Source of the DNA: an uncultured Dokdonia sp. | GTDB lineage: Bacteria; Bacteroidota; Bacteroidia; Flavobacteriales; Flavobacteriaceae | Reading direction: 5' to 3' | DNA length: 64,000 bases | Assembly: GCF_947496725.1 (NCBI RefSeq) | Contig: NZ_CANMDS010000001.1 | Coordinates: 434,001-498,000 of the forward strand | Part shown: piece after piece, positions 25,587-50,592 of the stretch | Numbering within the stretch: the first letter of the stretch is position 1 | Layout: the number at the start of each line of letters is the position of its first letter | The notes under the pieces: generated by a model | The model's database searches: none | Told to the model about the DNA's origin: nothing | The model's input: only the letters and a program-made list of their open reading frames with translations | Position numbers and translations under genes: made by a program

Positions 25587-25629
25587 TGACAATTGTCATA
25601 AACTAGATCTTGCTCACATATTATTTTTG
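25587..25629 (+). promoter_or_regulatory. FNR-type operator plus -7 box for hemN
   Basis: TGACAATTGTCA at 25587-25598 (the palindrome extends to 16 bp, TATGACAATTGTCATA) and TATTTTTG at 25622-25629, with 23 bp between. The hemN ATG is 16 bp further on. Confidence 0.85.
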
Positions 25630-25645
25630 AAAAAAAATATTTTTT

Positions 25646-27007
25646 ATGTGCACACTTATATCAAAATACAACGTTGCTGGACCCAGATATACGAGTTACC
25701 CTACGGTTCCTTACTGGGATAAAGAGCTATTTACCCTTAAAGGATGGAAAGAAACCTTAGTAAAAAGTTTTAATGAAAGTAACACTACAGAAGGTATAAG
25801 TCTTTATATACATTTACCCTATTGCGAGAGTATGTGCACCTTTTGTGGCTGTAATAAACGTATTACAAAAAATCACAGTGTGGAGATTCCTTACATACAA
25901 TCTGTACTCAAAGAGCTCACACTTTATGTAAAGCTTTTAGGTAGCACTCCCCTAGTTAAGCAATTACATCTAGGTGGTGGTACTCCTACTTTTTTCTCTC
26001 CAGAGCACTTAGATAGACTACTAGATGGAGTCTTTAGCCTCACCAACAAAGCAACAGAGTTTGAGCTAAGTTTTGAAGGACATCCTAACAATACCACAAA
26101 AAAACATCTTAAAACATTACATAAACAAGGCTTTACCAGAGTTTGCTACGGTGTACAAGATTATAATGAAACTGTTCAAAAAGCTATAAACAGAGTACAG
26201 CCATATCACAATGTAAAAACGGCAACCACAACCGCAAGAGAAGTAGGATACAGCTCTGTAGGTCACGATATTATTTATGGTCTACCTTTCCAAACGCAAG
26301 ATGATGTGATAAGTACAATCTTAAAAACCATAAATTTACGACCAGACCGCATCGCTTTTTATAGCTATGCCCACGTACCGTGGATGAAGGGGAACGGCCA
26401 GCGTGGCTTTTCTGATCAAGATTTACCCTCTGCAGAGCAAAAGAGAATGCAATATGAGATAGGTAAAAAAATGCTAGTCGAGGCAGGTTATGTAGAGATA
26501 GGTATGGATCATTTTGCGCTAGTAAATGACAGCCTTCACACCTCACAACAAGCAGGAAAAATACATCGCAATTTTATGGGGTATACCTCTAGTAAGACAC
26601 AAGTAATGATAGGTCTAGGTGTATCTGCTATAAGCGATAGCTGGTACAGCTTTGCTCAAAATGTAAAAAACATTGAGGAGTACCAGCAGCTAGTAGAAGA
26701 CGGTATTCTCCCTATCTTTAGAGGGCATTTACTTACAGATGAAGACCTTATTATAAGACAGCATATTCTTAACTTAATGTGTGAGTTTAAAACCTCGTGG
26801 GCAGATCAAAAACTACACTTCCCAGAAATACCTGATGTACTTATAAAACTTAAGGAGTTAGAAAATGATGGTTTAGTAGTAATAGATGCAACTGGTATCG
26901 AAATTACAGAAAAAGGAAGACCTTTTGTGCGTAATATTTGCCTACCATTTGACCTACGCCTACAGCGCAAAAAGCCAGAGACACAATTATTCTCTATGAC
27001 TGTATAA
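25646..27007 (+). CDS. hemN: Oxygen-independent coproporphyrinogen III oxidase (HemN)
   Basis: 453 aa radical SAM enzyme with YIHLPYCESMCTFCGCNK: C60, C64 and C67 bind the [4Fe-4S], and C69 completes the HemN-type CxxxCxxCxC motif. HLGGGTPTF follows. The N-terminal KYNVAGPRYTSYPT is typical of true HemN rather than HemW. It makes protoporphyrinogen IX without oxygen, which is needed for the haems of the cbb3 oxidase under low oxygen. The promoter has the same operator as the oxidase genes and an experimentally familiar parallel exists in FNR control of hemN in other bacteria. Confidence 0.95.
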   Translation: MCTLISKYNVAGPRYTSYPTVPYWDKELFTLKGWKETLVKSFNESNTTEGISLYIHLPYCESMCTFCGCNKRITKNHSVEIPYIQSVLKELTLYVKLLGSTPLVKQLHLGGGTPTFFSPEHLDRLLDGVFSLTNKATEFELSFEGHPNNTTKKHLKTLHKQGFTRVCYGVQDYNETVQKAINRVQPYHNVKTATTTAREVGYSSVGHDIIYGLPFQTQDDVISTILKTINLRPDRIAFYSYAHVPWMKGNGQRGFSDQDLPSAEQKRMQYEIGKKMLVEAGYVEIGMDHFALVNDSLHTSQQAGKIHRNFMGYTSSKTQVMIGLGVSAISDSWYSFAQNVKNIEEYQQLVEDGILPIFRGHLLTDEDLIIRQHILNLMCEFKTSWADQKLHFPEIPDVLIKLKELENDGLVVIDATGIEITEKGRPFVRNICLPFDLRLQRKKPETQLFSMTV

Positions 27008-27025
27008 TCTAAAAGTCATAATAAT

Positions 27026-27068
27026 AAAAAAAGGAGGAATCACCTATTAAGATGATTCCTCCTTTTTT
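27026..27068. terminator. Terminator after hemN
   Basis: Stem AAGGAGGAATCA/TGATTCCTCCTT around a loop near 27043-27050, with A-run on one side and T-run on the other, so it can act in both directions: for hemN and for the cco transcription unit. Confidence 0.88.
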
Positions 27069-27082
27069 GTTTTTTTAAATAA

Positions 27083-27098
27083 CGCTTTCGCGAAAGCG
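27083..27098. repeat. Iterated palindrome, copy 7
   Basis: CGCTTTCGCGAAAGCG between the hemN terminator and the 53-aa membrane protein gene, first copy after a 10.4-kb empty stretch. Confidence 0.9.
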
Positions 27099-27197
27099 GT
27101 CTAAACCTAAGCCCCTCTTTGCACTTTAATAAACATTAAAGCAATGCGTATATCTATCACTTTATAGACTACTCGGGTACATAAAGCGCTCAATATA

Positions 27198-27359
27198 CTA
27201 GCCATTATTTGTATCATCTTCTTCTTGGTTTGTAGCAGATTTACCGTTGCGAGACATACTATATACGATAAGTACCATCGCAATACACACCACGGCAAAA
27301 ACGCCTATTAACATTGCTCCCATTCCCCAGTCTACGAGTAGTAATAATGAATTTTTCAT
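27198..27359 (-). CDS. 53-aa single-pass membrane protein at the end of the cco cluster
   Basis: ATG at 27357-27359, stop at 27198-27200. The protein begins MKNSLLLLVDWGMGAMLIGV; a hydrophobic segment runs from about 15 to 34, followed by a polar, acidic tail (SMSRNGKSATNQEEDD). The same strand order and short spacing (49 bp) after the DsbD/UreH-like gene suggest it is part of the cco unit. A minus-strand ORF in another frame (27107-27298) overlaps it but lacks any protein-like pattern. Could be an oxidase assembly or stability peptide; function unproven. Confidence 0.65.
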   Translation of the reverse strand: MKNSLLLLVDWGMGAMLIGVFAVVCIAMVLIVYSMSRNGKSATNQEEDDTNNG

Positions 27360-27408
27360 AAGTTTAAAGTTTAGAGGTTGTAAAAAAATCTATGTTTAGT
27401 AATATCTC

Positions 27409-28116: not shown

Positions 28117-28563
28117 TTAATAACTTATTGATTTTTTATACATATAATCTTGATCACCATCACTCCAGGTGATTGTGATATTCCATCTTCCAGCAATGAG
28201 TTTATGATCTGGTATAAGCTGTTTACCATCTGTGATAGCAAGCGGTATTTCAAAATCTAACAGCTCATTAGACGGTCTATATAAGGAGACAGTACCCTTT
28301 ATAGAACTAGCATCTATAGATGCTGGAAATGTAAGTAACCACCCCTCTGGAGTAAGTATTCCATTAATTTTACCTTCAAGAAGATTTGCATTAGTTTCGG
28401 CATCTATTTCGGTTTGATACTTCATTTCTTTTGCATAATACTCTTCGGTTACCAGATCGTGACTATACTTCTTATCTGTGCTCATTGTGATGACCATATA
28501 CAGTATGAAAGCCATAAATGAGATCATTCCCACTACAATACCTTTTCCCCAGTTCCACTTCAT
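28117..28563 (-). CDS. ccoH: FixH/CcoH family protein
   Basis: 148 aa: one N-terminal membrane segment (about 8-27), then a periplasmic domain typical of FixH, beginning DLVTEEYYAKEMKYQTEID, a classic FixH stretch. It is an assembly factor of cbb3 oxidase that interacts with the copper ATPase CcoI. Follows ccoG by 35 bp, with a palindrome copy in that gap. Confidence 0.9.
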   Translation of the reverse strand: MKWNWGKGIVVGMISFMAFILYMVITMSTDKKYSHDLVTEEYYAKEMKYQTEIDAETNANLLEGKINGILTPEGWLLTFPASIDASSIKGTVSLYRPSNELLDFEIPLAITDGKQLIPDHKLIAGRWNITITWSDGDQDYMYKKSISY

Positions 28564-28598: not shown

Positions 28599-30020
28599 CT
28601 ATCTATATGTTCTTGGTCCTAAAAATGAGGTAACCGTTGTCTCTATTAGCTCATCACCGCTATACACCTCAACCTCTAGTTGTTCTTTATCACTCTTAAT
28701 AGCGCTTGCATTTATCTCAATAAACAGTGTGCCTTCTGCAAGACCTTGACCGCTTATATCAAAAAAATTGCCTGAGACAACCTCTATAGTCCCTTTATGA
28801 GAAGCAAGTTTAAAGTGTACATCATTTATATCTTCTATGGTTTTATTAACTAGTTTAAAGGTGTACACATTGCTTATCATATTATCTGCCTTGTGCTCAT
28901 AAAGTTGGCCTGGTAATCTTAAGATACGTGCCTCTACATCGTTACGTAAAAAGAGCATCCCTATAAGTACCGCTATGAGAATACCTAGTACAGCTGTATA
29001 GCCCTTGAGTCTAGGTGTAAATTTGAACTTTTCTTTTTTCTCAATATTATCTTCACTTGCATAGCGTATAAGCCCTGTGGGAAGATTTACAGCCTCCATC
29101 ATATGGTCACAGGCGTCTATACAAGCAGTACAGTTTACACACTCTAGCTGGGTGCCATTACGTATATCTATACCTGTAGGACATACGTGCACACAGGCAA
29201 AACAGTCTATACAATCACCTTTACCTGTAGTGGCGCGTTCTTCATTTTTTTTAAATTTTGCGCGACCTTCTTCCTTTTCTCCTCGTTTGTGATCATAAGC
29301 CACTACAATAGATTTATTATCTAGCAGCACACCTTGTAGACGACCATAAGGACAAGCGATAATGCATACTTGCTCTCTAAACCACGCAAATATGAAATAG
29401 AATACACCTGTAAAAATAAGTAATGATACTAGTGTGCTTATGTGCTTAGACGGTCCATCTGTGATATATCTTATAAGCTGGTCACTGCCTATGAGATAGG
29501 CAAGAAACACATTTGCTATAAGAAAAGAGATGATAAAAAATATAGACCACTTAAGGGCTCTTTTTTTTATTTTCTCCTTTGTCCACGGCATTTTTTTAAG
29601 TCGTATTTGTTTCCCTCTATCACCATCTATCCAGTACTCAATACGACGAAAAACCATTTCCATAAATATGGTCTGTGGGCATACCCAGCCACAAAATAAT
29701 CTACCAAAGGCAACGGTAAACAAAATCACAAAAACCACCCCAATAATCATCATTATTACAAACAGGTGAAAATCTTGTGGCCAAAATGGGTAGCCAAAAA
29801 TATTAAAGCGACGCTCTAATACGTTAAACATCAAAAACTGGTTACCACCTATTTTAATAAAAGGCGCACTAAATAAAAATAAGAGCAATACATAGCTTAC
29901 ATACTTGCGGTACTCGTACCACTTACCGTCTGGCTTTTTAGGAAAAACCCAAGCACGTTTACCCTCCTCATTAAGAGTGCCTATAGTGTCTCTAAAGTTA
30001 TCTTGTCCTTGCTCTGCCAT
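28599..30020 (-). CDS. ccoG: Cytochrome c oxidase accessory protein CcoG (FixG)
   Basis: 473 aa membrane ferredoxin. It has about five membrane segments, GRLFCGWVCPQTIFMEMVFRRIE (about 108-130), IACPYGRLQG, and two [4Fe-4S] motifs, CIDCFACVHVCP and CVNCTACIDACD (about 272-306). A C-terminal periplasmic Ig-like FixG domain follows. CcoG reduces Cu(II) for delivery to the cbb3 copper site. Lies between ccoP and ccoH. Confidence 0.95.
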   Translation of the reverse strand: MAEQGQDNFRDTIGTLNEEGKRAWVFPKKPDGKWYEYRKYVSYVLLLFLFSAPFIKIGGNQFLMFNVLERRFNIFGYPFWPQDFHLFVIMMIIGVVFVILFTVAFGRLFCGWVCPQTIFMEMVFRRIEYWIDGDRGKQIRLKKMPWTKEKIKKRALKWSIFFIISFLIANVFLAYLIGSDQLIRYITDGPSKHISTLVSLLIFTGVFYFIFAWFREQVCIIACPYGRLQGVLLDNKSIVVAYDHKRGEKEEGRAKFKKNEERATTGKGDCIDCFACVHVCPTGIDIRNGTQLECVNCTACIDACDHMMEAVNLPTGLIRYASEDNIEKKEKFKFTPRLKGYTAVLGILIAVLIGMLFLRNDVEARILRLPGQLYEHKADNMISNVYTFKLVNKTIEDINDVHFKLASHKGTIEVVSGNFFDISGQGLAEGTLFIEINASAIKSDKEQLEVEVYSGDELIETTVTSFLGPRTYR

Positions 30021-31201: not shown

Positions 31202-33406
31202 TTAGTCGTTTATGATGGTTGTTGTACCGTCTGTGTTTTTAACTTTTATATCTGTTCCTAATCGTTGTATGTAAGCTATAAGAGCTACCACTTCACGATT
31301 GCGCATCTCTATAAAATCTAGCCCATTCTCTTCGGCATATTTTTTATCTGCTTCATAGGTATTTGCAAAGTCTGGATCTGCATAAAGATTTTTCTCTATT
31401 TGCGTTCCTTGTGCCGTCATAAGCTCTTGAGCATTATCTATCTCCTCTTGAGTATAGGGTACACCTAGCGTGACCATTGCTTCCATTTTCTTTTCTGTAA
31501 GGTCTTTATCTAACTCATTTTTGATAAGCCATTTATAAGATGGCATTATTGAACCTGACGATGTACTCTGCGGATCGTAAAAGTGGTTTAAGTGCCAGTT
31601 GTCACTATACTTACCCCCTACACGCATAAGGTCTGGTCCCGTACGTTTACTTCCCCATAAAAATGGATGATCATACACATACTCTCCTGCCTTTGAGTAC
31701 TCACCATAACGCTCTACCTCACTTCTAAAAGGTCGTATCATTTGTGAGTGACACGATACACAGCTCTCTCGTATATAAATATCTCTACCCTCGAGTTCTA
31801 GTGGTGTGTATGGTTTTACACTTGAGATTACAGGTACATAATCATCTACCATAAGTGATGGTATAATTTGTACCATACCACCTATAAGGATGGCAATAGT
31901 TGCAAAAATGGTAAGCTTTACCGGGCGTCTTTCTAACCAAGTGTGGTATCCCTCTTTTGAGGTACGTTTTCTAGTTACTTTTTGAAGTGGCGCAGCCTCT
32001 GCGAGCTCATCTGTTACTTCATTACCCGAGCGTGCTGTCATTATTAAGTTATACACTCCTATAAGCGCTCCTACTATAAACATACTTCCTCCTATAGCAC
32101 GCATCCAGTACATCGGGATGATCTCACTCACTGTCTCAAGAAAGTTACCGTAAGTAAGTGTACCATCTGGATTAAATTGTTTCCACATAGATGCTTGTAC
32201 AAAACCAGCAACATACATAGGTAAAGCATAAAGTATAATACCTAATGTACCTACCCAGAAGTGTACGTTTGCAAGCTTAGTAGACCACAGTGTAGTTTTA
32301 AATAACCTAGGCACCATCCAGTATACCATACCAAATGTTAAGAAACCATTCCAAGCAAGTGCTCCTACGTGTACGTGTGCAATAACCCAGTCACTAAAGT
32401 GAGCGATGGCATTTACATTTTTAAGCGATAACATAGGCCCCTCAAAGGTTGCCATACCGTAGCCTGTAATTGCCACTACCATAAATTTAAGAACAGGATC
32501 CGTACGTACTTTATCCCAAGCCCCTCTTAGTGTGAGTAGTCCATTAATCATACCTCCCCAAGATGGAGCAATAAGCATAATAGAGAAGGCTACTCCTAAG
32601 TTTTGTGCCCAGTCTGGTAGTGCAGAGTATAACAGGTGGTGTGGCCCTGCCCAGATGTAAATAAAAATAAGAGACCAGAAGTGTACAATAGATAATCTGT
32701 ATGAGTATACCGGTCTATTTGCCGCCTTAGGCACAAAGTAGTACATAAGACCTAAAAATGGTGTTGTTAAAAAGAAAGCCACCGCATTGTGACCATACCA
32801 CCACTGTACTAGTGCATCTTGCACCCCAGCATACATAGAGTAACTCTTAAGCGCGCTTACTGGCAGCTCCATACTGTTTACAATATGTAATACCGCTACA
32901 GTTACAAATGTTCCTAAATAAAACCAGATTGCCACATAAAGGTGTCGCTGTCTTCTTTTAAGAATAGTACCTATTAAGTTTGCCCCAAAAGCAACCCAAA
33001 TTAATGCGATAGCAATGTCAAAAGGCCACTCTAGCTCTGCATACTCCTTTGAGGTAGTAAAACCTAAAGGCAGCGTGATTGCAGCACCTACAATGATAGC
33101 CTGCCATCCCCAGAAGTTAAGATTACTAAGCCAGTCTTTCCACATACGAGCTTTGAGAAGTCGTTGTGTAGAGTAATAAACACCAGCAAAAATAGCGTTA
33201 CCTACAAAGGCAAAAATCACAGCATTAGTATGCAGCGGACGCAAACGACCAAAACTTAACCAAGAGATGCCGTCTGTAAGGTTAGGAAAAAGAAACATAA
33301 AAGCTAGAAGAAGCCCCACACTCATCCCTATAATGCCCCAAAACATCGTCGCGATTATAAACTTACGTACGATTTTATTATCGTAATAGAATTTTTGTAT
33401 TTCCAT
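31202..33406 (-). CDS. ccoNO: cbb3 oxidase CcoN-CcoO fusion (subunits I and II)
   Basis: 734 aa. Residues 1-470 are the haem-copper subunit I with 12 or more helices: H59 and H346 for the low-spin and H344 for the high-spin haem by position, H206 and H256/H257 for CuB. A linker (460-500) leads to CcoO (500-734), one membrane anchor and a cytochrome c domain with CVSCH (C549, C552, H553) and Met in SIMPSYKW. This fusion is usual in Bacteroidetes. It reduces oxygen with high affinity and pumps protons. Confidence 0.96.
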   Translation of the reverse strand: MEIQKFYYDNKIVRKFIIATMFWGIIGMSVGLLLAFMFLFPNLTDGISWLSFGRLRPLHTNAVIFAFVGNAIFAGVYYSTQRLLKARMWKDWLSNLNFWGWQAIIVGAAITLPLGFTTSKEYAELEWPFDIAIALIWVAFGANLIGTILKRRQRHLYVAIWFYLGTFVTVAVLHIVNSMELPVSALKSYSMYAGVQDALVQWWYGHNAVAFFLTTPFLGLMYYFVPKAANRPVYSYRLSIVHFWSLIFIYIWAGPHHLLYSALPDWAQNLGVAFSIMLIAPSWGGMINGLLTLRGAWDKVRTDPVLKFMVVAITGYGMATFEGPMLSLKNVNAIAHFSDWVIAHVHVGALAWNGFLTFGMVYWMVPRLFKTTLWSTKLANVHFWVGTLGIILYALPMYVAGFVQASMWKQFNPDGTLTYGNFLETVSEIIPMYWMRAIGGSMFIVGALIGVYNLIMTARSGNEVTDELAEAAPLQKVTRKRTSKEGYHTWLERRPVKLTIFATIAILIGGMVQIIPSLMVDDYVPVISSVKPYTPLELEGRDIYIRESCVSCHSQMIRPFRSEVERYGEYSKAGEYVYDHPFLWGSKRTGPDLMRVGGKYSDNWHLNHFYDPQSTSSGSIMPSYKWLIKNELDKDLTEKKMEAMVTLGVPYTQEEIDNAQELMTAQGTQIEKNLYADPDFANTYEADKKYAEENGLDFIEMRNREVVALIAYIQRLGTDIKVKNTDGTTTIIND

Positions 33407-33644: not shown

Positions 33645-33687
33645 TAAAACTACGTGTGAACTTCAAGGTGAAATATGACAAATGTCA
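33645..33687 (-). promoter_or_regulatory. FNR-type operator plus -7 box for the ccoS-NOQPGH operon
   Basis: TGACAAATGTCA at 33676-33687; on the minus strand TAGTTTTA begins at 33652 and ends at 33645, 23 bp from the operator and 19 bp before the ccoS ATG. Confidence 0.85.
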
Positions 33688-33711: not shown

Positions 33712-33727
33712 CGCTTTCGCGAAAGCG
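33712..33727. repeat. Iterated palindrome, copy 9
   Basis: CGCTTTCGCGAAAGCG, 24 bp after the stop of the 125-aa gene that follows ccoI and just upstream of the cco operator. Confidence 0.9.
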
Positions 33728-33751: not shown

Positions 33752-34129
33752 TTACACGATCACTTTTTGAAGTCTTTTTGATACTTTCTGTAGCGATGAA
33801 AGCAGCACTCCAGCCCCTTGTACAGCACAAGGACAACTCATCATAAACTGATGCTCAAATCTTGTAATGGCTTGCAATGTGGTTTTAAATTCTTGTAAAA
33901 TGGCACCGTGAGCCTCTAGATAAAAAGCTTGATCTCTAGATGGTAATTGCTCTACTACTGAGAGTTGATTTTGCACAGCGCTTAACCAGCTATCAAAACC
34001 CTCTTGTAGCTCATTGTGGTGCACAGATTTGTAAAACATAGTTATAAGCTGTCTCTCTGTATACACAGGTAATACTGCTATATTATGAGACGGACCTACT
34101 GCCGAAGGGATGTGTAAATGTGTAATCAT
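33752..34129 (-). CDS. 125-aa protein translationally coupled to ccoI
   Basis: The start codon overlaps the ccoI stop (ATGA), so the two are co-translated. Mostly helical, no membrane segment. His residues cluster at the N-terminus (ITHLHIP, PSHN, SVHHN), and an MSCPCAV motif occurs near 98-104. Helical bundle with His and Cys suggests possible metal or haem binding, perhaps linked to copper or to redox state; this is inference. Family not recognised. Confidence 0.7.
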   Translation of the reverse strand: MITHLHIPSAVGPSHNIAVLPVYTERQLITMFYKSVHHNELQEGFDSWLSAVQNQLSVVEQLPSRDQAFYLEAHGAILQEFKTTLQAITRFEHQFMMSCPCAVQGAGVLLSSLQKVSKRLQKVIV

Positions 34130-36570
34130 ATTGTTTTAAGTTTTTTACCTAAAATTGAGGTGGATATCGTCGTAAATACAACGATACTTATAGAACTAAG
34201 CGGCATTAATATAGCTGCCACCACTGGTGCTAGATTACCTGTCACAGCAAAACCTAGACCTATGAGGTTATAAAATATTGAGAAAATAAAGGCATATTTA
34301 ATGACCTCTACTCCCTTACGTGATAAGCTCATAAAAGTGGGTATATCTTTAAATCTTTGTGCGTCTAGTATACCATCACAAGCAGGAGAAAAGACATTTA
34401 CATTTTCTGATATAGAAATACCTACATCACTTTGTGCTAGAGCTCCTGCGTCATTAAGACCGTCTCCTATCATCAATACTTTGCGATTACTATCTTGAAG
34501 GGACTTTATGAATTGTAACTTATCTTCTGGCTTTTGATTAAATAGTAACGTAGCATCTTGTGGCAATAATTCTGCAAGATGCTCACGCTCTCCATCATTA
34601 TCACCAGAGAGAATAATAACCTTAGCTTTTTTACCTATTTGATCAAAAACGGTTTGTACACCAGACCTGTAGTCATTATAAAATAAATAACACCCCTTAT
34701 ACATACTGTCTGTACTTATATGAACCGCAGTACGGGTATGTGGTTGTGCAGTTTTATGAGCCGCATTATCACTTACAAAACCGTAAGACCCTATCTTAAT
34801 CTGGTGGTTGTTTATTGTCCCTGTGATACCCTGGCCTACATCTTCTGTATATTCATCCAGCGTTTGGATATTGTGGGTATTTAATAGTTCATATAGCGAT
34901 CTACTTAAAGGGTGGTTTGAAGCTCTAAGTGTGCTGGTGAGAAGTGATTTTTCTTGCGTACTAAGTGCAATACCTTCATAGGTTATTGTGTTCTTTACAC
35001 TTGTTGTGAGCGTACCTGTTTTATCAAAAACAACGGTGTCTATGTGTGACATACGCTCTATGACTGAGCTATCTTTCATATATAGCTTATGACGCCCAAA
35101 AATGCGCAGTAAATTACCTAGTGTAAAGGGTGCAGCAAGAGCTATCGCACAAGGACAGGCAACAATGAGCACTGCTGTAAACACATTAAGCGCTGTACTT
35201 ATATCTATAAAAACCCAAACTAAGGTTGCAATAACAGCAATAGCAAGCAGTGATATGGTGAACCTCCTGCTTATACGGTCTGTTAGATTTTCAAACGGAC
35301 TTTGATTTTTTGAACTAAAGATTTCATTAGACCATAACTGAGTAAGATAGCTCTGCTCTACAGGCTTGAGCACCTCAACCTCGATAGGACCTGCTTGCTG
35401 TCTCCCTCCAGCAAAAAGTTGATCACCAGATTGCTTTGTAACTGGAGCTGCTTCACCCGTCACAAAACTATAGTCTATAAGAGCATTTCCTTTAATAAGG
35501 ATAGCATCTACTGGTAAAAGCTCTCCATTTCTTATAAGTATGCGATCCTTAGTCTTGAGCTCATAGACTTGTGCTTGCTCTTCTATAACCTTAGACTGGT
35601 CTTGCTCGTTACGATCGTGAGTAACTGAATTTTCGGTTTTATTTTGAACTTGTTTTATAAGTCTAGTAACAGCAATAGGAAAGTAAGATTTATAATCTCT
35701 CTCAAATGATAGAAAGGCATACGTTTTCTGCTGGAAAAATCTCCCTAATAATAAAAAGAAGACCAGCCCCGCCATACTGTCAAAAAAGCCAGTACCCCAG
35801 TCCATCATAATCTCAACACTTGACCTTACAAATAGTACCGTAATACCTATGGCTATAGGTACATCTATATTTAAAACTTTAGATCGTAATCCTTTATATG
35901 CAGATATAAAATAATCACGACCAGAATAAAAAACTACCGGCAGAGCAAAGAGGAACATCAACCATCTAAAAACGTACTTAAACTTATCTAACCAGAATTC
36001 ACCTACCTCAAAATACTCTGGAAAGGATAAGAACATAATATTACCAAAGGCAAAGCCAGCAACACCAAGTTTATAGATAAGGCTTCTATCTACCGTTGTC
36101 TTCTTCTCTGTTGCGTCCTCTAGCGAGATATATGGCTCATACCCTATTCTTGATAAAAGTATGGCCAGATCTTTAAGTGTAATCTCTGATGAGTTATATG
36201 TAATACGAACGGTCTTTTCTGGAAAATTTACTTGTGCCGTCTTTACTGCCGCATTAAGTTTATTGAGATTCTCAAGAACCCATATGCAAGAACTGCAGTG
36301 TATAGAAGGTATTAATAAAGAGACAACCTGAGTATCTTGCTCATCAAACTCTATGAGCTTTGTTACTATATCCTTATTTTCTAAAAAGTCAAACTTTGCT
36401 TCTTGATCTAATGGAGATATACCTGGAGCACGCTCAATATCATAATAGTAGGTAAGGTCATTATCATTTAAGATATCAAAGACAGTCTTACAGCCGTGAC
36501 AGCAAAAAGATTTTTCTTGATGTATGATTTCTGTCTCACAAACATCACCACAATGATAACAACTTGACAT
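34126..36570 (-). CDS. ccoI: Copper-transporting P1B-type ATPase CcoI (FixI)
   Basis: 814 aa. N-terminal Cys-rich motif (CYHCGDVC and FCCHGC, about 4-27), an HMA domain with CSSC (C92, C95), eight membrane segments with the CPC translocation motif, DKTGTLT phosphorylation loop, HP motif (SNHPLSRSL) and GDGLNDAGAL hinge. The N-terminal extra domain is typical of CcoI. It exports copper to the periplasm for assembly of the cbb3 CuB site. It has its own FNR-type promoter. Confidence 0.95.
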   Translation of the reverse strand: MSSCYHCGDVCETEIIHQEKSFCCHGCKTVFDILNDNDLTYYYDIERAPGISPLDQEAKFDFLENKDIVTKLIEFDEQDTQVVSLLIPSIHCSSCIWVLENLNKLNAAVKTAQVNFPEKTVRITYNSSEITLKDLAILLSRIGYEPYISLEDATEKKTTVDRSLIYKLGVAGFAFGNIMFLSFPEYFEVGEFWLDKFKYVFRWLMFLFALPVVFYSGRDYFISAYKGLRSKVLNIDVPIAIGITVLFVRSSVEIMMDWGTGFFDSMAGLVFFLLLGRFFQQKTYAFLSFERDYKSYFPIAVTRLIKQVQNKTENSVTHDRNEQDQSKVIEEQAQVYELKTKDRILIRNGELLPVDAILIKGNALIDYSFVTGEAAPVTKQSGDQLFAGGRQQAGPIEVEVLKPVEQSYLTQLWSNEIFSSKNQSPFENLTDRISRRFTISLLAIAVIATLVWVFIDISTALNVFTAVLIVACPCAIALAAPFTLGNLLRIFGRHKLYMKDSSVIERMSHIDTVVFDKTGTLTTSVKNTITYEGIALSTQEKSLLTSTLRASNHPLSRSLYELLNTHNIQTLDEYTEDVGQGITGTINNHQIKIGSYGFVSDNAAHKTAQPHTRTAVHISTDSMYKGCYLFYNDYRSGVQTVFDQIGKKAKVIILSGDNDGEREHLAELLPQDATLLFNQKPEDKLQFIKSLQDSNRKVLMIGDGLNDAGALAQSDVGISISENVNVFSPACDGILDAQRFKDIPTFMSLSRKGVEVIKYAFIFSIFYNLIGLGFAVTGNLAPVVAAILMPLSSISIVVFTTISTSILGKKLKTI

Positions 36571-36615: not shown

Positions 36616-36658
36616 CAAATGTGTGATTATGTAAGTGCTTTTACTATGACATATATCA
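36616..36658 (-). promoter_or_regulatory. FNR-type operator plus -7 box for ccoI
   Basis: TGACATATATCA at 36647-36658 and CACATTTG (minus strand, 36623 to 36616) with the standard 23-bp gap. The -7 box has one mismatch (C for T). The ATG is 45 bp downstream, a longer leader than at the other promoters. Confidence 0.78.
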
Positions 36659-37949: not shown

Positions 37950-37992
37950 TAAATGTAAGACCAGATATAATGGTAGACTATGACAATTATCA
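37950..37992 (-). promoter_or_regulatory. FNR-type operator plus -7 box for the 138-aa gene
   Basis: TGACAATTATCA at 37981-37992 and TACATTTA (minus, 37957 to 37950), 23 bp apart, 27 bp before the ATG. Confidence 0.85.
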
Positions 37993-38942: not shown

Positions 38943-38985
38943 TAAATCTAGCTTAACAAAACTGGAATAACTATGATAAAGACTA
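38943..38985 (-). promoter_or_regulatory. Degenerate FNR-type operator plus -7 box for Usp-1
   Basis: TGATAAAGACTA at 38974-38985 keeps only the promoter-proximal half (TATCA on the minus strand); TAGATTTA (38950 to 38943) lies at the exact 23-bp distance. Confidence 0.65.
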
Positions 38986-39850: not shown

Positions 39851-39893
39851 TAAAACTACGTGCATATATCTACCCATTCTATGACATTAGTCA
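39851..39893 (-). promoter_or_regulatory. FNR-type operator plus -7 box for Usp-2
   Basis: TGACATTAGTCA at 39882-39893 and TAGTTTTA (minus, 39858 to 39851), 23 bp apart, 19 bp before the ATG. Confidence 0.85.
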
Positions 39894-42463: not shown

Positions 42464-42506
42464 CAAATCTATGCGCTTTACTAGCCTTAAACTATGATTT
42501 ATGTCA
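42464..42506 (-). promoter_or_regulatory. FNR-type operator plus -7 box for the three-Usp unit
   Basis: TGATTTATGTCA at 42495-42506 and a perfect TAGATTTG (minus, 42471 to 42464), 23 bp apart, 21 bp before the ATG at 42442. It fixes the gene start. Confidence 0.85.
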
Positions 42507-43323: not shown

Positions 43324-43343
43324 CATAAATACATTGAGTGGGA

Positions 43344-43386
43344 CAAATGTATTTTATGAAAAGTGGTTAAAGAATGATAAAAATCA
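43344..43386 (-). promoter_or_regulatory. FNR-type operator plus -7 box for Usp-6
   Basis: TGATAAAAATCA at 43375-43386 and a perfect TACATTTG (minus, 43351 to 43344), 23 bp apart. The operator lies 14 bp from the 3' end of the regulator gene. Confidence 0.85.
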
Positions 43387-43399: not shown

Positions 43400-44446
43400 T
43401 TACTCTACACTCTGTAAGCCATCTACATCAAGTAGCCTGATATTACGCCCCTCTATGGCTATGAGTCCGTCTTTTTTAAATCCAGACAGCGTTCTTATTA
43501 AACTCTCTGTAGCAATACCTGCAACACTTGCGAGATCATTTCTCGCTATTTTTATCCCTTCTTGTGGCGTTTTATTAAGAATTTCTGCGAACTGTAAAAT
43601 AGTTTGAGCCGTTTTTTTGCGCACAGAGCTATATGCCATTTGTAAAAGCTGGTCTTTAATATCTGCAAGATTATCTGTGAGGAGCTCCATAAGCTCTAAT
43701 GAGACATTTTTACTTTTTTCTAGAATGGCTTTGAGCTCTTTTTTACTCACTCCTACTACTGTCACTTCCTCCATTGCTGTGGCAGACTCTTGATATGCAA
43801 GGTTATCTAAAAATGAAGTAAAGCCTAAAAAATCATCTGCCTTAAAGAGAGCCGTAATAAGTTCTTTACCACTCTCATCCATTTTATGGGTCTTTACTAT
43901 GCCCTTGAGTATGAGGTATACCATATTAGAATGTCCCCCTTCTTTATAGATTTCTTCACCCTTCTTAAATGTAAACTCCTCACCCTCATCATCAAAAAAA
44001 TTCTTGAGCTCATTAAGACTTCTCAGTGACTCATCATTTGCAGTTTGAGATTGCTCCTTAGTTTTTGCATTAAGTATAGTAGCTTTTGCTATACGGCTCT
44101 CTATAGCGCTTATTAATTCTTCCTCCTCAAAAGGTTTGGTGAGATAATCATCTGCACCCATATCCATTCCTTTTCTTATTTCCTTGTGCTCAGTTTTGGC
44201 AGAGAGAAATATGAATGGAATGTGGCTTGTAGTAGTATCACTAGAGAGTGCCTCTAACACGCCATAACCATCTACCTCTGGCATCATAATATCACAGACA
44301 ATCACATCTGGTGGTGATGACTTTGCATACTCAATACCCACACGGCCATTGGGCGCAGCTGTTACATCATAATTTGATAACTCAAGCAGCTCTGCTGTGT
44401 TTTCGCGTAAAGCGGCATCATCTTCTATAATAAGTACTCTTTTCAT
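43400..44446 (-). CDS. Response regulator with Crp/Fnr output domain (FixJ/FixK-like fusion)
   Basis: 348 aa. REC domain 1-120 with acidic pocket E8/D9/D10 region, phospho-acceptor D52 and K104. After a linker, a cyclic-nucleotide-type jelly roll covers about 145-260, a dimer helix about 260-290 and a winged helix 298-342. The recognition helix TESLIRTLSGFKK has E314 and R318, the E-x3-R pair that reads TGA/TCA half-sites in FNR proteins. There is no N-terminal Cys cluster, so oxygen must be sensed elsewhere, presumably by the PAS kinase gene 4 bp away. The likely master regulator of the twelve operators in this region; this link is inferred. Confidence 0.9.
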   Translation of the reverse strand: MKRVLIIEDDAALRENTAELLELSNYDVTAAPNGRVGIEYAKSSPPDVIVCDIMMPEVDGYGVLEALSSDTTTSHIPFIFLSAKTEHKEIRKGMDMGADDYLTKPFEEEELISAIESRIAKATILNAKTKEQSQTANDESLRSLNELKNFFDDEGEEFTFKKGEEIYKEGGHSNMVYLILKGIVKTHKMDESGKELITALFKADDFLGFTSFLDNLAYQESATAMEEVTVVGVSKKELKAILEKSKNVSLELMELLTDNLADIKDQLLQMAYSSVRKKTAQTILQFAEILNKTPQEGIKIARNDLASVAGIATESLIRTLSGFKKDGLIAIEGRNIRLLDVDGLQSVE

Positions 44447-44450: not shown

Positions 44451-45680
44451 TCAGTTTTGAGTGGTAGGTATCATAATGGTAAAGGTAGAACCTTGATTTA
44501 AAATACTTTTAAAGGTAAGGCTACCTCCCAGGTTTTCTATATGGCTTTTTACAATATTAAGCCCTATACCTGTACCCGCATTAAGTAATGCATTTTCTGC
44601 TCTAAAATAACGGTTGAATATAAACTTTTGTTCGTGCTCTGGTATTCCTATTCCTTGATCTCTTATAGTTATAAAAAGTTGCTTTTCGTCCTGTTGTATA
44701 TCTATATAGACGTTTGTGTTTTCTCCAGAATATTTTACAGCATTATGGACCAGATTTGTAAGAGCAAGTTCTAGTATTTTTTCATCAAACTCAATCACAA
44801 TATCATCTGCCTCTTTTGGGTAATGTATTTGCTGTCCATCTTTAAGGTGCATATTTGCATCATAAATCACCTCGCTTAGCACTTTACTTAAGTAAACTTC
44901 TGTAAACTTATAGTTAGTTTTACCAGTATCTAATCGCTCTACAGATAAGAAATCATCAATTATAGTATTAAGATATTTAACCTTACTCTTTATAATATTG
45001 AGATGTTTTTCTCTCTTGTCTTGCTGGTCTTCTCTTGTATATTTTCCAGCTAGTGTGGCAGAGGTAAGTATACCGCTTATAGGGGTTTTGAACTCGTGAG
45101 ACACTAGCGATAAAAACTTAGTCTTAAGCTCATTAAGCTCTTTCTCTTTTTGAAGTGCTTCTTTTGCATTATTCTCTGCTTCTACTCGCAGTTGCACCTC
45201 ATCTTTAAGCTTATTTACCGCTTCTCTAAGAGATTCTGTTCTTGCAGAAATTTTTTCTTCTAGGGTGCTATTAAGGTTTAAGATTTGCGCCTCTTGTGAT
45301 TTACGTACTGTAATATCTGTAACCAGAGCCATCACATATTGCTTATCGTGTAGTACAAATGGATTGAGTCCAGCCTCTACAGGGATTTGTGATCCATCTT
45401 TACGCAAGCCGTATAAGTCTCTCCCAGTACCCATCTCGCGCTTGTCACTATGGTCCATAAATTTTTTAAAATGACCACCGTGAGAACCGTGATAACGCAT
45501 AGGTATAAGAGTCTCAAGCTTGCTACCTTCTAGCTCATTTGACTCATACCCAAAAATAGTTCTAGCAGACTCATTTGTAGCGACTATAATCTGGGAAGAA
45601 TCTACAACCACAATTCCCTCTGAAGCACCTTCAAATAGAATAAAAAATGCCTCTTCTATACTCTCTTCTAAAAATTTCAT
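44451..45680 (-). CDS. PAS-domain histidine kinase, FixL-like
   Basis: 409 aa, soluble. The PAS domain (about 10-125) aligns with the FixL haem PAS: H67 stands seven residues after the LIP motif, as does FixL H200 after LMP, and R87 follows 20 residues later, as FixL R220. A generic sensory PAS shares part of this pattern, so haem binding is only likely. A coiled linker (130-185) leads to HisKA with the phospho-His in SLVSHEFKTP (H195), then an HATPase with LVHNAVKYSG (N box), DQGIGIP and GTGIGLNIV. It sits 4 bp from the REC-Crp gene and is surely its partner. Sensor for oxygen or redox is inferred. Confidence 0.9.
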   Translation of the reverse strand: MKFLEESIEEAFFILFEGASEGIVVVDSSQIIVATNESARTIFGYESNELEGSKLETLIPMRYHGSHGGHFKKFMDHSDKREMGTGRDLYGLRKDGSQIPVEAGLNPFVLHDKQYVMALVTDITVRKSQEAQILNLNSTLEEKISARTESLREAVNKLKDEVQLRVEAENNAKEALQKEKELNELKTKFLSLVSHEFKTPISGILTSATLAGKYTREDQQDKREKHLNIIKSKVKYLNTIIDDFLSVERLDTGKTNYKFTEVYLSKVLSEVIYDANMHLKDGQQIHYPKEADDIVIEFDEKILELALTNLVHNAVKYSGENTNVYIDIQQDEKQLFITIRDQGIGIPEHEQKFIFNRYFRAENALLNAGTGIGLNIVKSHIENLGGSLTFKSILNQGSTFTIMIPTTQN

Positions 45681-45750
45681 AAACTAAAAATACAACTATT
45701 ACAGCAATCACCTATTCCCTATTTAAATACTTCATAAAAGTCTTTGTAAA

Positions 45751-45793
45751 TGACATATATCATAGTTAAAAATTAATGTCAAAAGTATTTTTA
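45751..45793 (+). promoter_or_regulatory. FNR-type operator plus -7 box for the TerB-like gene
   Basis: TGACATATATCA at 45751-45762 and TATTTTTA at 45786-45793, 23 bp apart, 18 bp before the ATG at 45812. It lies in the gap to the kinase gene, for which no such -7 box is seen on the other strand. Confidence 0.83.
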
Positions 45794-45811
45794 ACATTTA
45801 AAACTAACACT

Positions 45812-46222
45812 ATGGAAATTACTAATAATAAAGATGTTACTTTCTATCATAACCTAGGCAAACTTTTTTATGCCATCGCTGCAGCAGATAAGGTTGTACG
45901 AGATGAAGAGTTTTCTAGGTTGCAATATTGCGTTTTAAATTACTGGTTAGAAATAGATGATTTACAAGATGCTTTTGGGGCAGATGCGGCATATCTCATC
46001 GAGATTGTATTTGAAGGAGTCGAAGCTTTTAATGAAGACCCTCAAAAAATGTTCAGTGACTTTCTAGATTATAAAAATGAGCATCCTCATTTTTTTACCA
46101 TTGAGATTAAAAATATCATTTTACAAACAGCTTGGACCATAGGGCGTGCATTTTCTGGTCTAAATAAATCAGAACTCATAATGCTAGGTAAGTTAGAACT
46201 AGTTCTTAGTGAGGCTGCTTGA
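45812..46222 (+). CDS. TerB-like helical protein of the regulon
   Basis: 136 aa from the ATG at 45812 (MEITNNKDVTFYHNLGKLFY). An upstream in-frame ATG at 45776 is ruled out because the -7 box (45786-45793) lies inside that reading. All-helical; the FYAIAAADKVVRDEEFSRLQ stretch resembles the TerB fold (helix, acidic turn, helix), which binds metal in tellurite-resistance proteins. No Cys or His cluster. Function unknown; induced with the low-oxygen genes if the promoter works as proposed. Confidence 0.7.
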   Translation: MEITNNKDVTFYHNLGKLFYAIAAADKVVRDEEFSRLQYCVLNYWLEIDDLQDAFGADAAYLIEIVFEGVEAFNEDPQKMFSDFLDYKNEHPHFFTIEIKNIILQTAWTIGRAFSGLNKSELIMLGKLELVLSEAA

Positions 46223-46920: not shown

Positions 46921-47757
46921 TTACATTTTAAACGTAAACACTGGCATTTTAGAGTGATTAACTAACGCCTCTGCAACGCTACCTCTAAAAAAGTGCGACA
47001 AGCCCTTACGACCGTGGGTAGGCATTGCAAGTGCATCTGCATTAACCTTTTGAGCATATTCATAAAGCCCACTCTCAATAGTATAACCATTAATAATAAC
47101 AAGGTCTTCTTGATGTAACGGTTTACCGAACTCTGCTAGACGCATAAAAGATGTCATATCTTCTTCTATCTCTTTAGAGCTTCTAAAACGATCTGCAGGT
47201 AGATTTACATATACCAGGTGTACCCTTGCTCCTAGCTTTTCAAATAATGGGATAGCTTCTCTATATGCTGTCACATTTTCTGTTTTAAAATCGCAAGCAA
47301 ACACTATATTTTGTGGTATGTACTCCCCTGCTCTATCTTTTATTACCAGCACAGGTATTTCTGAGCTTCTTACTACTTTTTCTGTGTTTGATCCTACAAA
47401 CTCTTCTCGCAATCCCTTTGCTCCGTGTGAACCCATAATGATGAGATCTATCTCCTGCTCTTTTGCAAGTTTATTTACTTCTTCAAAAATCTTATAATTT
47501 TGAACAACCTCTGTGACCTTTACCCCCTCCATATAAGGTTTATCAAGAAAGGTTTGAAACTGCTTTTCGGCTAGTTTCATATGGTACACTCCTTGAGCAA
47601 TATTATCACCTTCACTGTGAGTGAGTACCGCATCAGATAGGCCCATCATATGAAGAACTAAAATCTCTGCATTGTACGCTTTCGCGAAAGCGGAAGCCGT
47701 CTCAAGTGCATTTTCTGACTGTGTTGAAAAATCAACGGGAACTAAAATCTTTTTCAT
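46921..47757 (-). CDS. Tandem universal stress protein (Usp-7), canonical ATP motif
   Basis: 278 aa, two UspA domains. KKILVPVDFSTQSENAL and the full motif GSHGAKGLREEFVGS in the first; the second has AMPTHGRKGLSHFFRGS, so both domains keep the motif (the best preserved of the eight). Its start overlaps the end of the hibernation factor gene by one base, so it is translated together with it. A palindrome copy in the first domain encodes AFAKA. Confidence 0.9.
   Translation of the reverse strand: MKKILVPVDFSTQSENALETASAFAKAYNAEILVLHMMGLSDAVLTHSEGDNIAQGVYHMKLAEKQFQTFLDKPYMEGVKVTEVVQNYKIFEEVNKLAKEQEIDLIIMGSHGAKGLREEFVGSNTEKVVRSSEIPVLVIKDRAGEYIPQNIVFACDFKTENVTAYREAIPLFEKLGARVHLVYVNLPADRFRSSKEIEEDMTSFMRLAEFGKPLHQEDLVIINGYTIESGLYEYAQKVNADALAMPTHGRKGLSHFFRGSVAEALVNHSKMPVFTFKM
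47677..47692. repeat. Iterated palindrome, copy 14 (intragenic)
   Basis: CGCTTTCGCGAAAGCG within Usp-7, read as SAFAKAYN. Confidence 0.9.
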
Positions 47758-48068
47758 TATGAGCTTATTTTTTGGTTAGTAAATTGTGCTTTGCGTTTTT
47801 TGAGCTGCACATCCAGATCTGAAATGGTTTCCTTTACAGCCATCTCAAAATTTTTCTCTTGTGATTGAGCAAATATGGTTGGGCCAGGTAGACTAAGCTC
47901 TATCTCACAGATAGCGTTATGGTGTGTTTGCCCAGTTTCTTTTTTGATAAAAACATTTGCCTTTATGAGCCAGTCATACCTCTTAAAAAGTTTGACTAGT
48001 TTATCTTCTATATATGTCGTGAGTGCTTCACTGCTATCTATCTTAACATATGCTATCTGTACATCCAT
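47757..48068 (-). CDS. Ribosome hibernation promoting factor (HPF/RaiA, short form)
   Basis: 103 aa, with the beta-alpha-beta-beta-beta-alpha layout: EALTTYIEDKLVKLFKRYD, AICEIELSLPG and MAVKETISDLDVQLKKRKAQF, all characteristic of HPF. It lies upstream of Usp-7 in one unit with an FNR-type promoter, linking ribosome hibernation to low oxygen. Length matches the short HPF type, not the long dimer-forming form. Confidence 0.9.
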   Translation of the reverse strand: MDVQIAYVKIDSSEALTTYIEDKLVKLFKRYDWLIKANVFIKKETGQTHHNAICEIELSLPGPTIFAQSQEKNFEMAVKETISDLDVQLKKRKAQFTNQKISS

Positions 48069-48096: not shown

Positions 48097-48139
48097 TAAA
48101 AGTACGGCTCATTTATAAGGTATAATATGATATATATCA
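48097..48139 (-). promoter_or_regulatory. FNR-type operator plus -7 box for HPF-Usp-7
   Basis: TGATATATATCA at 48128-48139 and TACTTTTA (minus, 48104 to 48097), 23 bp apart, 28 bp before the ATG. Confidence 0.83.
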
Positions 48140-48140
48140 G

Positions 48141-48737: not shown

Positions 48738-48740
48738 ACT

Positions 48741-48783
48741 CAAATCTATATGGTGTCGCTTAATAAGCAAATGATATTTATCA
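48741..48783 (-). promoter_or_regulatory. FNR-type operator plus -7 box for the barrel protein
   Basis: TGATATTTATCA at 48772-48783 and a perfect TAGATTTG (minus, 48748 to 48741), 23 bp apart. It fixes the gene start. On the plus strand toward the patatin gene the nearest TAnnTTTA is off by 3 bp. Confidence 0.83.
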
Positions 48784-48856
48784 TAATCAAGATCCCTCCA
48801 CTGGCCTTATAATTTTAACCATAATCTACTATCTTGCATACTCAATCCCATATGTT

Positions 48857-49615
48857 ATGAAAATAGGACTTGCACTATCTGGAGGCGGTATAAAAGGAGT
48901 TGCTCACGTAGGATTACTCAAGGCTCTAGATGAATATAACATCAAACCTTCTTATGTTACGGGCACAAGTGCTGGCGCCATTGTAGGCGGACTTTATGCT
49001 GCAGGTTATGACTGGGAGACAATTTTAAACTTTTTTAGAAACACATCTATTTTTAAACTAAGTAGATATGCTCGCAGTAAACCCGGAATACTAGATTCCT
49101 TAAAATTTGCAAATGATCTAGCTGCATTTTTTCCAGATGATCGTTTTGAGGCTTTAAAGCTCCCATTATCCATAACAGCAACCACCGTTGTGAGTGGTGA
49201 GCAACATATTTTTAATAGTGGTAGCCTCATTAAACCTATTATTGCATCGGCATCTTTTCCTGGAGTGTTTACTCCTATAGATATAGATGGGACTCTATAC
49301 TTTGACGGCGGGGTGATAGATGATTTTCCCGTGGAGCCTTTAATAAATAATTGCAACCGTATTATAGGTAGTTATGTAAACCCTCTCAGTGCTATAAATA
49401 TCACTTCCTTAAAACATTCTTACCAAGTTCTTAATAGAGCTTATGAGATTAATTTACACCATCGTATTAAGAATAAATTTACTATGTGTGATATCCTTGT
49501 TTGCCCAGATGAGCTCTCTAAGTTTGGCACTTTTAGTATGCGCAATGTTGAGCGTATTTTTCAAATAGGTTATGAGTCTGCTTGCAAGGAGCTTGAGAAG
49601 CATTACAAATTATAA
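48857..49615 (+). CDS. Patatin-like phospholipase
   Basis: 252 aa. GGGIKG oxyanion loop (9-14), GTSAG with nucleophile S38 and the DGG motif with catalytic D150. It hydrolyses acyl esters of phospholipids. No signal peptide, so it is intracellular. It lies between Usp genes, with the operator of the barrel gene 79 bp upstream. Confidence 0.92.
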   Translation: MKIGLALSGGGIKGVAHVGLLKALDEYNIKPSYVTGTSAGAIVGGLYAAGYDWETILNFFRNTSIFKLSRYARSKPGILDSLKFANDLAAFFPDDRFEALKLPLSITATTVVSGEQHIFNSGSLIKPIIASASFPGVFTPIDIDGTLYFDGGVIDDFPVEPLINNCNRIIGSYVNPLSAINITSLKHSYQVLNRAYEINLHHRIKNKFTMCDILVCPDELSKFGTFSMRNVERIFQIGYESACKELEKHYKL

Positions 49616-49651
49616 TAAGACCACTCTTAAGGGCTTAATGGTTGTTATTAC

Positions 49652-49665
49652 GCTTTCGCGAAAGC
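49652..49665. repeat. Iterated palindrome, copy 15
   Basis: GCTTTCGCGAAAGC between the convergent stops of the patatin gene (49615) and Usp-8 (49682). Confidence 0.9.
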
Positions 49666-49681
49666 ATAATTTATCCATCTA

Positions 49682-50530
49682 CTACTTCTCACAGTCTCGT
49701 AAAATAAACACTGGTAAACTAGAGGAATTTACAATGTCACTTAAGTGCGAGTTTGAAAAAACACGTTCTAAAAAGGTTTGCTTTTTTACAGAAATCACTT
49801 GCATCTGCACGTCATTTTTTTCTACAAATTCATCAATCTCATTTATAGGTTGCTCTGTCGAGAGTATGTGATAATCTAGCGGTACGCGAGGATATAAACT
49901 CTTTATTTCCTCCTCTTCTGCATCACACTCTATGGGGTGCATCTCTAAAGCAAAGGTTAATCTAAGCACGCTTACCTTAGGTTTATACTTTAGTATAAGC
50001 TCATCAAATAGATCCTTACCACAAGTGTCAAAAGAGTCATCATAGTCTAGGAGGTATTGAACTCGCTTAGGTACTTCATAAGTATAATGTTCTGGCACGA
50101 CAAGCACAGAGCAGTCTGATGTATGTATCACACGTAAGGTGTGTGAGCTAAAAATTGCTTCCATAACGCCCGTATTACCATCTGTACCACATACCACGAC
50201 ATCTATCTTATAATTTAGCACGGCTTGAGAAATAGCATCTGTAAAGATGTCATAATCTACGTGACTCTTAAAGGTGTACGTCCCGTTGCTATAAATACTA
50301 GTGTATTTTATTATGAGCGATGCTAGGTCACTGCGATTATCTTCTAGTAAGGCATTATCTACACTACTTTTTGAGCTGGCAACCATAAGGTCATCCATAG
50401 TAAAGTCCCAAGCTTTCTGAATACTTAATAAATGAAAGGTGCACTCTTGACCTTTAAAATACTTAAAGGCATATTGATGTGCATTTTCAGACTTGGCTGT
50501 AAAATCTGTAAGGAGGAGGATATTTTTCAT
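49682..50530 (-). CDS. Tandem universal stress protein (Usp-8)
   Basis: 282 aa, two UspA domains; KNILLLTDFTAKSENAH starts the first. The ATP loop is GTDGNTGVMEAIFSS, with Ser for the last Gly, so binding may be weakened. The second half is divergent (EEEIKSLYPRVPLDYHIL). Single gene with its own operator and promoter. Confidence 0.87.
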   Translation of the reverse strand: MKNILLLTDFTAKSENAHQYAFKYFKGQECTFHLLSIQKAWDFTMDDLMVASSKSSVDNALLEDNRSDLASLIIKYTSIYSNGTYTFKSHVDYDIFTDAISQAVLNYKIDVVVCGTDGNTGVMEAIFSSHTLRVIHTSDCSVLVVPEHYTYEVPKRVQYLLDYDDSFDTCGKDLFDELILKYKPKVSVLRLTFALEMHPIECDAEEEEIKSLYPRVPLDYHILSTEQPINEIDEFVEKNDVQMQVISVKKQTFLERVFSNSHLSDIVNSSSLPVFILRDCEK

Positions 50531-50549
50531 AGCACCTATTTTAGTTACC

Positions 50550-50592
50550 TAAAACTAATAGGTTTTATTTGCTATAACTATGACATATGTCA
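50550..50592 (-). promoter_or_regulatory. FNR-type operator plus -7 box for Usp-8
   Basis: TGACATATGTCA at 50581-50592 (a perfect palindrome) and TAGTTTTA (minus, 50557 to 50550), 23 bp apart, 19 bp before the ATG. Confidence 0.86.

Follow-up and report, generated by a model that had tools for sequence, protein, structure and literature searches.

Promoters of FNR class II carry the operator TTGAT-N4-ATCAA at −41.5, the centre at which class II FNR and CRP activators sit, and CRP/FNR proteins use a glutamate (E) and an arginine (R) of the recognition helix to read TGA. A second point of reference is the FixL-FixJ-FixK cascade, with the arrangements FixLJ-FixK2 and hFixL-FxkR-FixK named in published abstracts. 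In alphaproteobacteria, the FnrL/FNR core regulon as given in the accessible part of PMC2908626 includes cbb3 subunits, FixG/FixH-type proteins, a heavy-metal P-type ATPase, a cco maturation protein, hemN, UspA and OmpW. For HcpR2 of Bacteroides and others, the accessible part of PMC1274295 reports the motif GTAACnnnnGTTAC and predicted regulons that in most Bacteroides hold hcp genes only; the same text names R180 and E181 of CRP as specificity positions. Here we describe twelve promoters of a single design in a stretch of 64,000 nucleotides (the window) from the 3.29 Mb genome (G000) of an uncultured Dokdonia sp., Flavobacteriaceae. Judging from the sequence, we consider it quite likely that these promoters form a locally clustered regulon that is switched on by one activator, a receiver-Crp fusion protein (REC-Crp) acting with a PAS kinase when oxygen is low.

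Each promoter consists of a 12-bp operator and an 8-bp −7 box, and the original prediction placed the box exactly 23 bp past the operator, counted on the strand of the downstream gene. All twelve palindromes are present and the gap holds at all twelve. On the plus strand lie the promoters of hemN (operator 25587..25598, box 25622-25629) and of a TerB-like gene read from ATG 45812 (operator 45751..45762, box 45786-45793). The other ten lie on the minus strand. The first two of these precede the cco operon, whose first gene is ccoS at 33419-33625 (operator 33676..33687, box 33645-33652), and a heavy-metal P-type ATPase (operator 36647..36658, box 36616-36623, reading CACATTTG). Next come the promoters of a 138-amino-acid protein at 37506-37922 (operator 37981..37992, box 37950-37957) and of the Usp genes 38068-38919 (operator 38974..38985, box 38943-38950) and 38983-39831 (operator 39882..39893, box 39851-39858). 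A three-gene Usp operon follows (operator 42495..42506, box 42464-42471), whose extent from 42442 down to 39891 we infer from site-free spacers of 5-6 bp, and then Usp 42517-43326 (operator 43375..43386, box 43344-43351). The last three serve an HPF-Usp operon (operator 48128..48139, box 48097-48104), an outer-membrane barrel with a predicted leaderless start at 48737 (operator 48772..48783, box 48741-48748) and Usp 49682-50530 (operator 50581..50592, box 50550-50557). The consensus proposed for the palindromes, TGAYANNTRTCA, is exact at eight of the twelve; 38974, flagged from the start as half degenerate, departs in one half (TAGTCTTTATCA), and 39882, 42495 and 43375, which had passed unflagged, differ at inner positions. 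TGA-N6-TCA is nevertheless kept in 11 of 12 operators. The TAnnTTTG-type box likewise stands as TAnnTTT at 11 of 12, 36647 being the exception. With three gene starts moved to a later ATG, every operator starts within a spacer, and together they occupy 12 of the 23 spacers between listed genes; operators 38974 and 39882 each share 3 bp with the stop codon of an adjacent gene.

This spacing is indeed far beyond chance. The window contains the strict design, TGAY-N4-RTCA-N23-TANNTTT, ten times, whereas 200 dinucleotide shuffles yielded it 0.04 times on average and never more than once, and with TA..TT-type boxes no gap from 0 to 60 besides 23 is seen more than twice. The genome-wide scan for operator, 23 bp and box that had been proposed as a check returned 14 matches, ten of them in the island, and three for a control with the pattern reversed; with a tighter operator and at most one mismatch, 11 of 15 genome matches fall inside the island. 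Allowing up to two mismatches gave 93 matches against 81 for the control, so that no wider regulon rises above background in this genome. Exact palindromes number 24 genome-wide; 12 of the 16 outside the island lie inside open reading frames, and none of the four intergenic ones has TAnnTTT at 23 bp. From these strict-design and palindrome scans it follows that the regulon of the window genome is nearly confined to 25 kb. Related loci carry the same signature. Around the best 80 of 560 REC-Crp relatives (1.59 Mb in total, flanks of at most 10 kb), a gap of 23 accounts for 432 operator-box pairs, with at least one in each locus; gap 0 comes next with 64, gaps 24 and 25 account for 21 and 18, and all other gaps have a median of 5. 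When the 80 loci were shuffled three times under a first-order Markov model, no pair at gap 23 arose. Across 198 genomes sampled from the phylum, the strict design and its reversed control were found 336 and 32 times in 18 family genomes besides that of the window, 25 and 3 times in two genomes of the same order, and 174 and 18 times in 28 of the class, and the design is sparse in the 149 genomes elsewhere (202 against 55).

Family models back most of the gene names: hemN, ccoS, ccoNO, ccoP, ccoG, FixH, HPF, the barrel and eight Usp genes. The hemN product (25646..27007, plus strand) matches TIGR00538 with 431 bits, over the cut-off. The cco operon runs on the minus strand from ccoS (TIGR00847 and PF03597) through a ccoNO fusion (31202..33406, NF011053 over cut-off) to ccoP (30049-31005, a FixP_N match, with NCBIfam ccoP below cut-off), ccoG (28599-30020, TIGR02745 over cut-off) and FixH/CcoH (28117-28563, from Pfam). 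HPF, a ribosome hibernation factor (47757..48068, minus strand), matches PF02482 at 2e-15 and TIGR00741 over cut-off. Two names fared less well. The supposed ccoI (34126..36570, minus strand) matches general heavy-metal P-type ATPase models only (TIGR01525 just over cut-off); the specific name is carried over from the original prediction. The TerB label (45812..46222, plus strand) is weak: Pfam TerB matches 11 of 34 homologues weakly and the window protein not at all, and a fold search returned no match at E 0.001, its best sensible row being Porphyromonas gingivalis PG1108 (2h5n; probability 0.95, TM about 0.52). The 138-amino-acid protein has no Pfam or NCBIfam match. Among the 80 loci, the TerB-like gene has the most often retained site (59 loci), followed by the four commonest best-matching Usp genes (51, 39, 37 and 30), HPF (27) and ccoNO (19); distant genes such as hemN are undercounted because of the short flanks, and for 121 of the 432 pairs the downstream gene has no relative among the window genes.

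This set of genes resembles the alphaproteobacterial core regulon. As far as the accessible part of PMC2908626 goes, the two have in common cco genes, the heavy-metal ATPase, hemN, Usp, FixG, FixH and an outer-membrane protein, and there too the gene for the regulator is often a neighbour of the cbb3 genes. They differ in phylum, in the −7 box, in the first base of the operator and in the regulator, that of the island being a receiver-Crp fusion accompanied by a kinase; the island also adds eight Usp genes, HPF and the TerB-like gene. HcpR2, to the extent described in PMC1274295, shares membership of the Crp/Fnr family and a palindromic operator and differs in motif and regulon content. In Flavobacterium psychrophilum, expression of cbb3 and heme genes increases when oxygen is limiting, according to the accessible part of PMC9723704. 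Taking these genes together with the FNR-core targets and with the FixL/Dos-like PAS domain described below, low oxygen probably controls these promoters, and that part of the low-oxygen/dormancy label is borne out, if indirectly. The other part is not: HPF and the many Usp genes, on which it was based, suggest survival at low energy, and "dormancy" exceeds this evidence.

The proposed partner of REC-Crp and candidate oxygen/redox sensor is a PAS-HisKA-HATPase kinase (44451..45680, minus strand), recognised by its domain matches; in 79 of 80 loci the gene directly precedes that for REC-Crp. Its gene is divergent from the TerB-like gene, with operator 45751 in the spacer 45681-45811 between them; the minus side of this operator reads TTTAAATA and has no −7 box at 23 bp, and only the TerB side has one, which gives no sign of autoregulation through this site. 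Searched by sequence against the PDB, the kinase PAS domain matched 14 chains at E 1e-5 or better and every one is a heme-PAS chain (FixL, Escherichia coli DosP/Dos or 10jx); by fold, the first 18 rows are heme-PAS chains as well. H67 of the domain aligns with the His of FixL, DosP and heme-PAS 10jx, which in FixL and DosP we take to be the proximal heme ligand, and is kept in 80 of 80 rows. It is therefore likely that the PAS domain binds heme. NO and CO are further possible ligands of heme PAS domains, and the distal pocket of the kinase differs in part from that of FixL, so the signal could be nitric oxide, redox or energy state rather than oxygen; Usp and HPF would themselves indicate energy stress. 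We nonetheless hold such a signal to be unlikely, since the targets are a cbb3 oxidase and an oxygen-independent hemN and since sister genomes link this design to an FNR that has CxxC cysteines. Moreover, no denitrification enzyme is named among the scanned island proteins, although the rest of the genome was not searched for such enzymes.

REC-Crp itself (43400..44446, minus strand), the proposed activator, joins a receiver (PF00072, 4.5e-29) to a cyclic-nucleotide-binding fold (PF00027, 9.4e-17) and a Crp-type helix-turn-helix (HTH; PF13545, 3.4e-11). The latter two place it in the Crp/Fnr superfamily, and a conserved Asp pocket and the neighbouring kinase gene mark it as a response regulator: D9, D10, D52 and K104 of the receiver are conserved in at least 97% of 81 REC-Crp rows. 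Each letter of its recognition helix, GIATESLIRTLS, is found in 80 or 81 of the 81. The closest named relative among the matches listed is from a Dokdonia metagenome-assembled genome (98% identity). The best-scoring listed Crp-type model for the Crp half is NCBIfam FixK (79 bits, below its cut-off of 300). Because this half is without cysteine in the window protein, REC-Crp is not an FNR-type Fe-S sensor. Conservation of the recognition helix, together with co-occurrence over 199 family genomes, backs the proposal that REC-Crp is a candidate reader of the operators. Among the open-access papers listed by our literature searches, none describes a REC-Crp regulator in Bacteroidota.

Exclusive reading of the operators by REC-Crp, in contrast, had to be dropped. 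REC-Crp, counted at E 1e-60 or better, is present in 86 of the 199 genomes, and several genomes without it are rich in sites (25 in G017, 24 each in G033 and G005); these genomes led the search to a stand-alone FNR. All eight REC-negative, site-bearing genomes examined encode a Crp/Fnr protein of about 225 amino acids with an N-terminal CxxC and the helix GTATESAIR, which is nearly the same as that of REC-Crp, both carrying E and R. C4, C7, C53, C59 and C106 are found in 8/8 rows and C29 in seven; C4, C7 and C106 have counterparts among the FNR cysteines in an alignment that leaves the third N-terminal Cys of FNR unmatched. In seven of the eight genomes the gene has a listed site no more than 4 kb away, and in the eighth (G009) the nearest listed site is 31 kb away. 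Three site-free genomes (G039, G073 and G087) have no stand-alone FNR, the Crp proteins listed for G039 and G073 being of other types only. Extended to the 199 genomes, the stand-alone FNR class numbers 116 (E 1e-57 or better) of 125 matched, nine weak matches (E 1e-30 to 1e-46) being excluded. Among genomes at least 90% complete, the median number of sites is 16 with REC-Crp only (n=36, none below six), 28 with both regulators (n=47), 11 with the FNR only (n=56) and 2 with neither (n=27; 0.89 per Mb, control 0.51), close to the background level. When all 199 genomes are counted, the class with neither (n=45) has 1.35 sites per Mb against 0.53 for the control; G048 with 31 sites and G147 with 18 stand out from it, both less than 90% complete, and four of the 27 more complete members have at least five. 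Both regulators occur together in 48 genomes, in eight of which they lie on the same strand with 971-997 bp between them, and two of the 80 loci (L060 and L069) also hold both. The window genome has REC-Crp and no match to the stand-alone FNR at E 1e-30. It thus appears that the stand-alone FNR reads the same operator in related genomes, alone or beside REC-Crp, and that two kinds of input would drive the same output. An FNR-like paralogue of about 250 amino acids, with CxxC-x4-C and the helix TTEEQVIRVF, was seen in three of 11 family genomes examined (L127, L128 and L137).

Might some other Crp/Fnr protein of the same cell read the operators? Besides REC-Crp the window genome has four further Crp/Fnr genes with HTH_Crp_2 over cut-off (a fifth match is weak), the candidates being the protein at 24710-25369 and those on contigs C3, C4 and C7, and the C7 protein has a helix, GTAREVVSRIL, that carries E and R. 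The gene at 24710-25369 (minus strand), divergent from hemN, is the second Crp/Fnr-type gene of the window, and its product probably reads another site because its helix, SRQTVSN, is without the E/R pair of TGA readers. In a tree of 15 of the 81 REC-Crp rows, the eight stand-alone FNRs and other Crp proteins, REC-Crp, the stand-alone FNR and a second FNR-like group stand apart from most other Crp proteins, including the remaining ones of the window genome, although deep support is weak and does not establish REC-Crp and the stand-alone FNRs as sisters. REC-Crp, moreover, sits amid the sites, and all 36 of the sufficiently complete REC-only genomes have at least six. We therefore regard another reader in this cell as quite unlikely.

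According to the accessible part of PMC9723704, the sigma-A box of F. psychrophilum, TAnnTTTG, occupies −12 to −5. A box there and a gap of 23 bp put the operator at −47 to −36, with its centre at −41.5. The claim that the operators lie near this position is thus borne out by the gap at 12/12 sites and by the 432 pairs, with the start-site position borrowed from F. psychrophilum. The geometry matches that of a class II FNR/CRP-dependent promoter, at which the bound protein would act as an activator. Compared with FNR promoters, the TGA-N6-TCA core and the −41.5 centre are shared, whereas the half-site here begins with A or C where that of FNR has T, and the −7 box is of the flavobacterial type, TAnnTTTG. 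The design would also fix gene starts, as had been proposed: ATG 45812 rather than 45776 for the TerB-like gene, 42442 rather than 42466 for the Usp gene and 48737 rather than 48770 for the outer-membrane protein. With the assigned start codons, predicted leaders are 12-41 nt at eleven sites; at 36647 and 43375 an earlier ATG lies before the assigned start. The barrel mRNA is predicted to be leaderless because its predicted +1 is one base from the ATG; its −7 box (48741-48748) ends three bases ahead of ATG 48737.

A logo of 430 distinct sites, in which the core letters are set by the search pattern and the flanking letters are free, reads (A/C)TGAY-N4-RTCAT, followed by 22 bases none of which exceeds 0.35 bits and by TAnnTTT(G/A), with C in 62% and A in 28% of sites at −48 and T in 97% at −35. 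The position of an operator is no proof of activation by itself. CRP/FNR proteins are also capable of repression, and several −7 boxes are near consensus, so the operators could be repressor sites or the regulator could work in both directions. Repressor sites usually vary in position, however, and the fixed centre at −41.5 is the activating geometry of class II; the logo, with no TTG at −33 to −30 and T-richness there of at most 0.35 bits, is what is expected of activator-dependent promoters. Repression in either form is in our view very unlikely. That the pattern arose by chance or by ancestral duplication, the six neighbouring Usp genes being paralogues that could carry copied promoters, is extremely improbable, since the same spacing at the unrelated hemN, ccoS, P-type ATPase, TerB-like, HPF and barrel genes contradicts copying, the operator-to-box bases are hardly conserved over the 430 sites, and shuffled sequence almost never yields the design.

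The operator (A/C)TGAY-N4-RTCAT, 23 bp upstream of the −7 box, overlaps the place of the −33 element. Under our proposal of one activator, the PAS kinase would phosphorylate REC-Crp when oxygen falls, and a REC-Crp dimer would bind the operator and recruit RNA polymerase in the manner of a class II FNR/CRP activator. The induced set would be the cbb3 oxidase with its assembly genes, hemN, eight Usp genes, HPF, the TerB-like protein and the outer-membrane barrel. In its heme-PAS-like kinase, its receiver and its Crp/FNR-type DNA binding on cbb3 genes, the system resembles FixL-FixJ-FixK; the FixJ-driven transcription of fixK would be absent here because receiver and Crp parts are one protein. 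Since a stand-alone FNR appears to serve the same operator elsewhere, the output (operator, spacing, recognition helix and core genes) is conserved and the sensing part differs. We give an even chance to the broader proposal of a single-step Fix cascade, in which a FixL-like heme-PAS kinase would act on a FixJ-type receiver fused to a FixK/FNR-type activator and so directly on cbb3 and stress promoters. REC-Crp and the cysteine-type FNR of Flavobacteriaceae would then share one helix and one operator geometry, with the input exchanged or doubled and the output the same; the lineage of the window would keep the phospho-input only, with nearly all its sites in one 25-kb island.

Several observations weigh against this account of REC-Crp and its kinase. 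In the fold search LOV domains come close behind the heme-PAS rows and 436 chains pass E 0.001, so the PAS fold alone is not specific. The model of the domain is weak at residues 67-86 (predicted local distance difference test below 50), and its distal pocket resembles that of FixL only in part: R87 is kept in 74 of 80 rows, and most rows have a polar residue at position 82. As for the distal Arg of FixL, heme-PAS 10jx too has none at the corresponding place. One −7 box, at 36647, departs from TA, and the kinase-regulator operon is without a −7 box at 23 bp on its own strand. The co-occurrence ignores phylogeny, many of the genomes with neither regulator are small, and the operator alone names no reader, because FNR-only genomes also carry the design. 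Finally, the alphaproteobacterial core set, in the part of PMC2908626 available, also holds genes not seen in the island.

Three further features were seen in passing. A 14-bp palindrome, GCTTTCGCGAAAGC, occurs 18 times in the window (for example at 33713, 36688, 38039 and 50656), several times beside operators or gene ends, and in only four of the 80 relatives' loci (L016, L043, L062 and L074). A patatin-like gene (48857-49615, plus strand), divergent from the barrel, has several patatin-type NCBIfam matches, all below cut-offs. On contig C4 an exact operator-like palindrome, TGACATTTGTCA, lies at 206603 (L105:1604-1615) near a Crp gene with the helix SRVVISR and has no −7 box at 23 bp; the flanking genes, named by eye, are presumably metallo-beta-lactamase-like and TauE-like.

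We found little in print on the oxygen control of respiration in Bacteroidota. Within FNR/FixK-type control the system is of interest for its fused regulator, for the two alternative readers of one operator and for the phylum in which it occurs. The rigid design would allow promoters, gene starts and regulon members to be predicted from sequence alone across flavobacterial genomes, and the two regulators that appear to alternate on one operator would amount to a natural experiment in which the sensor was changed and the output kept.

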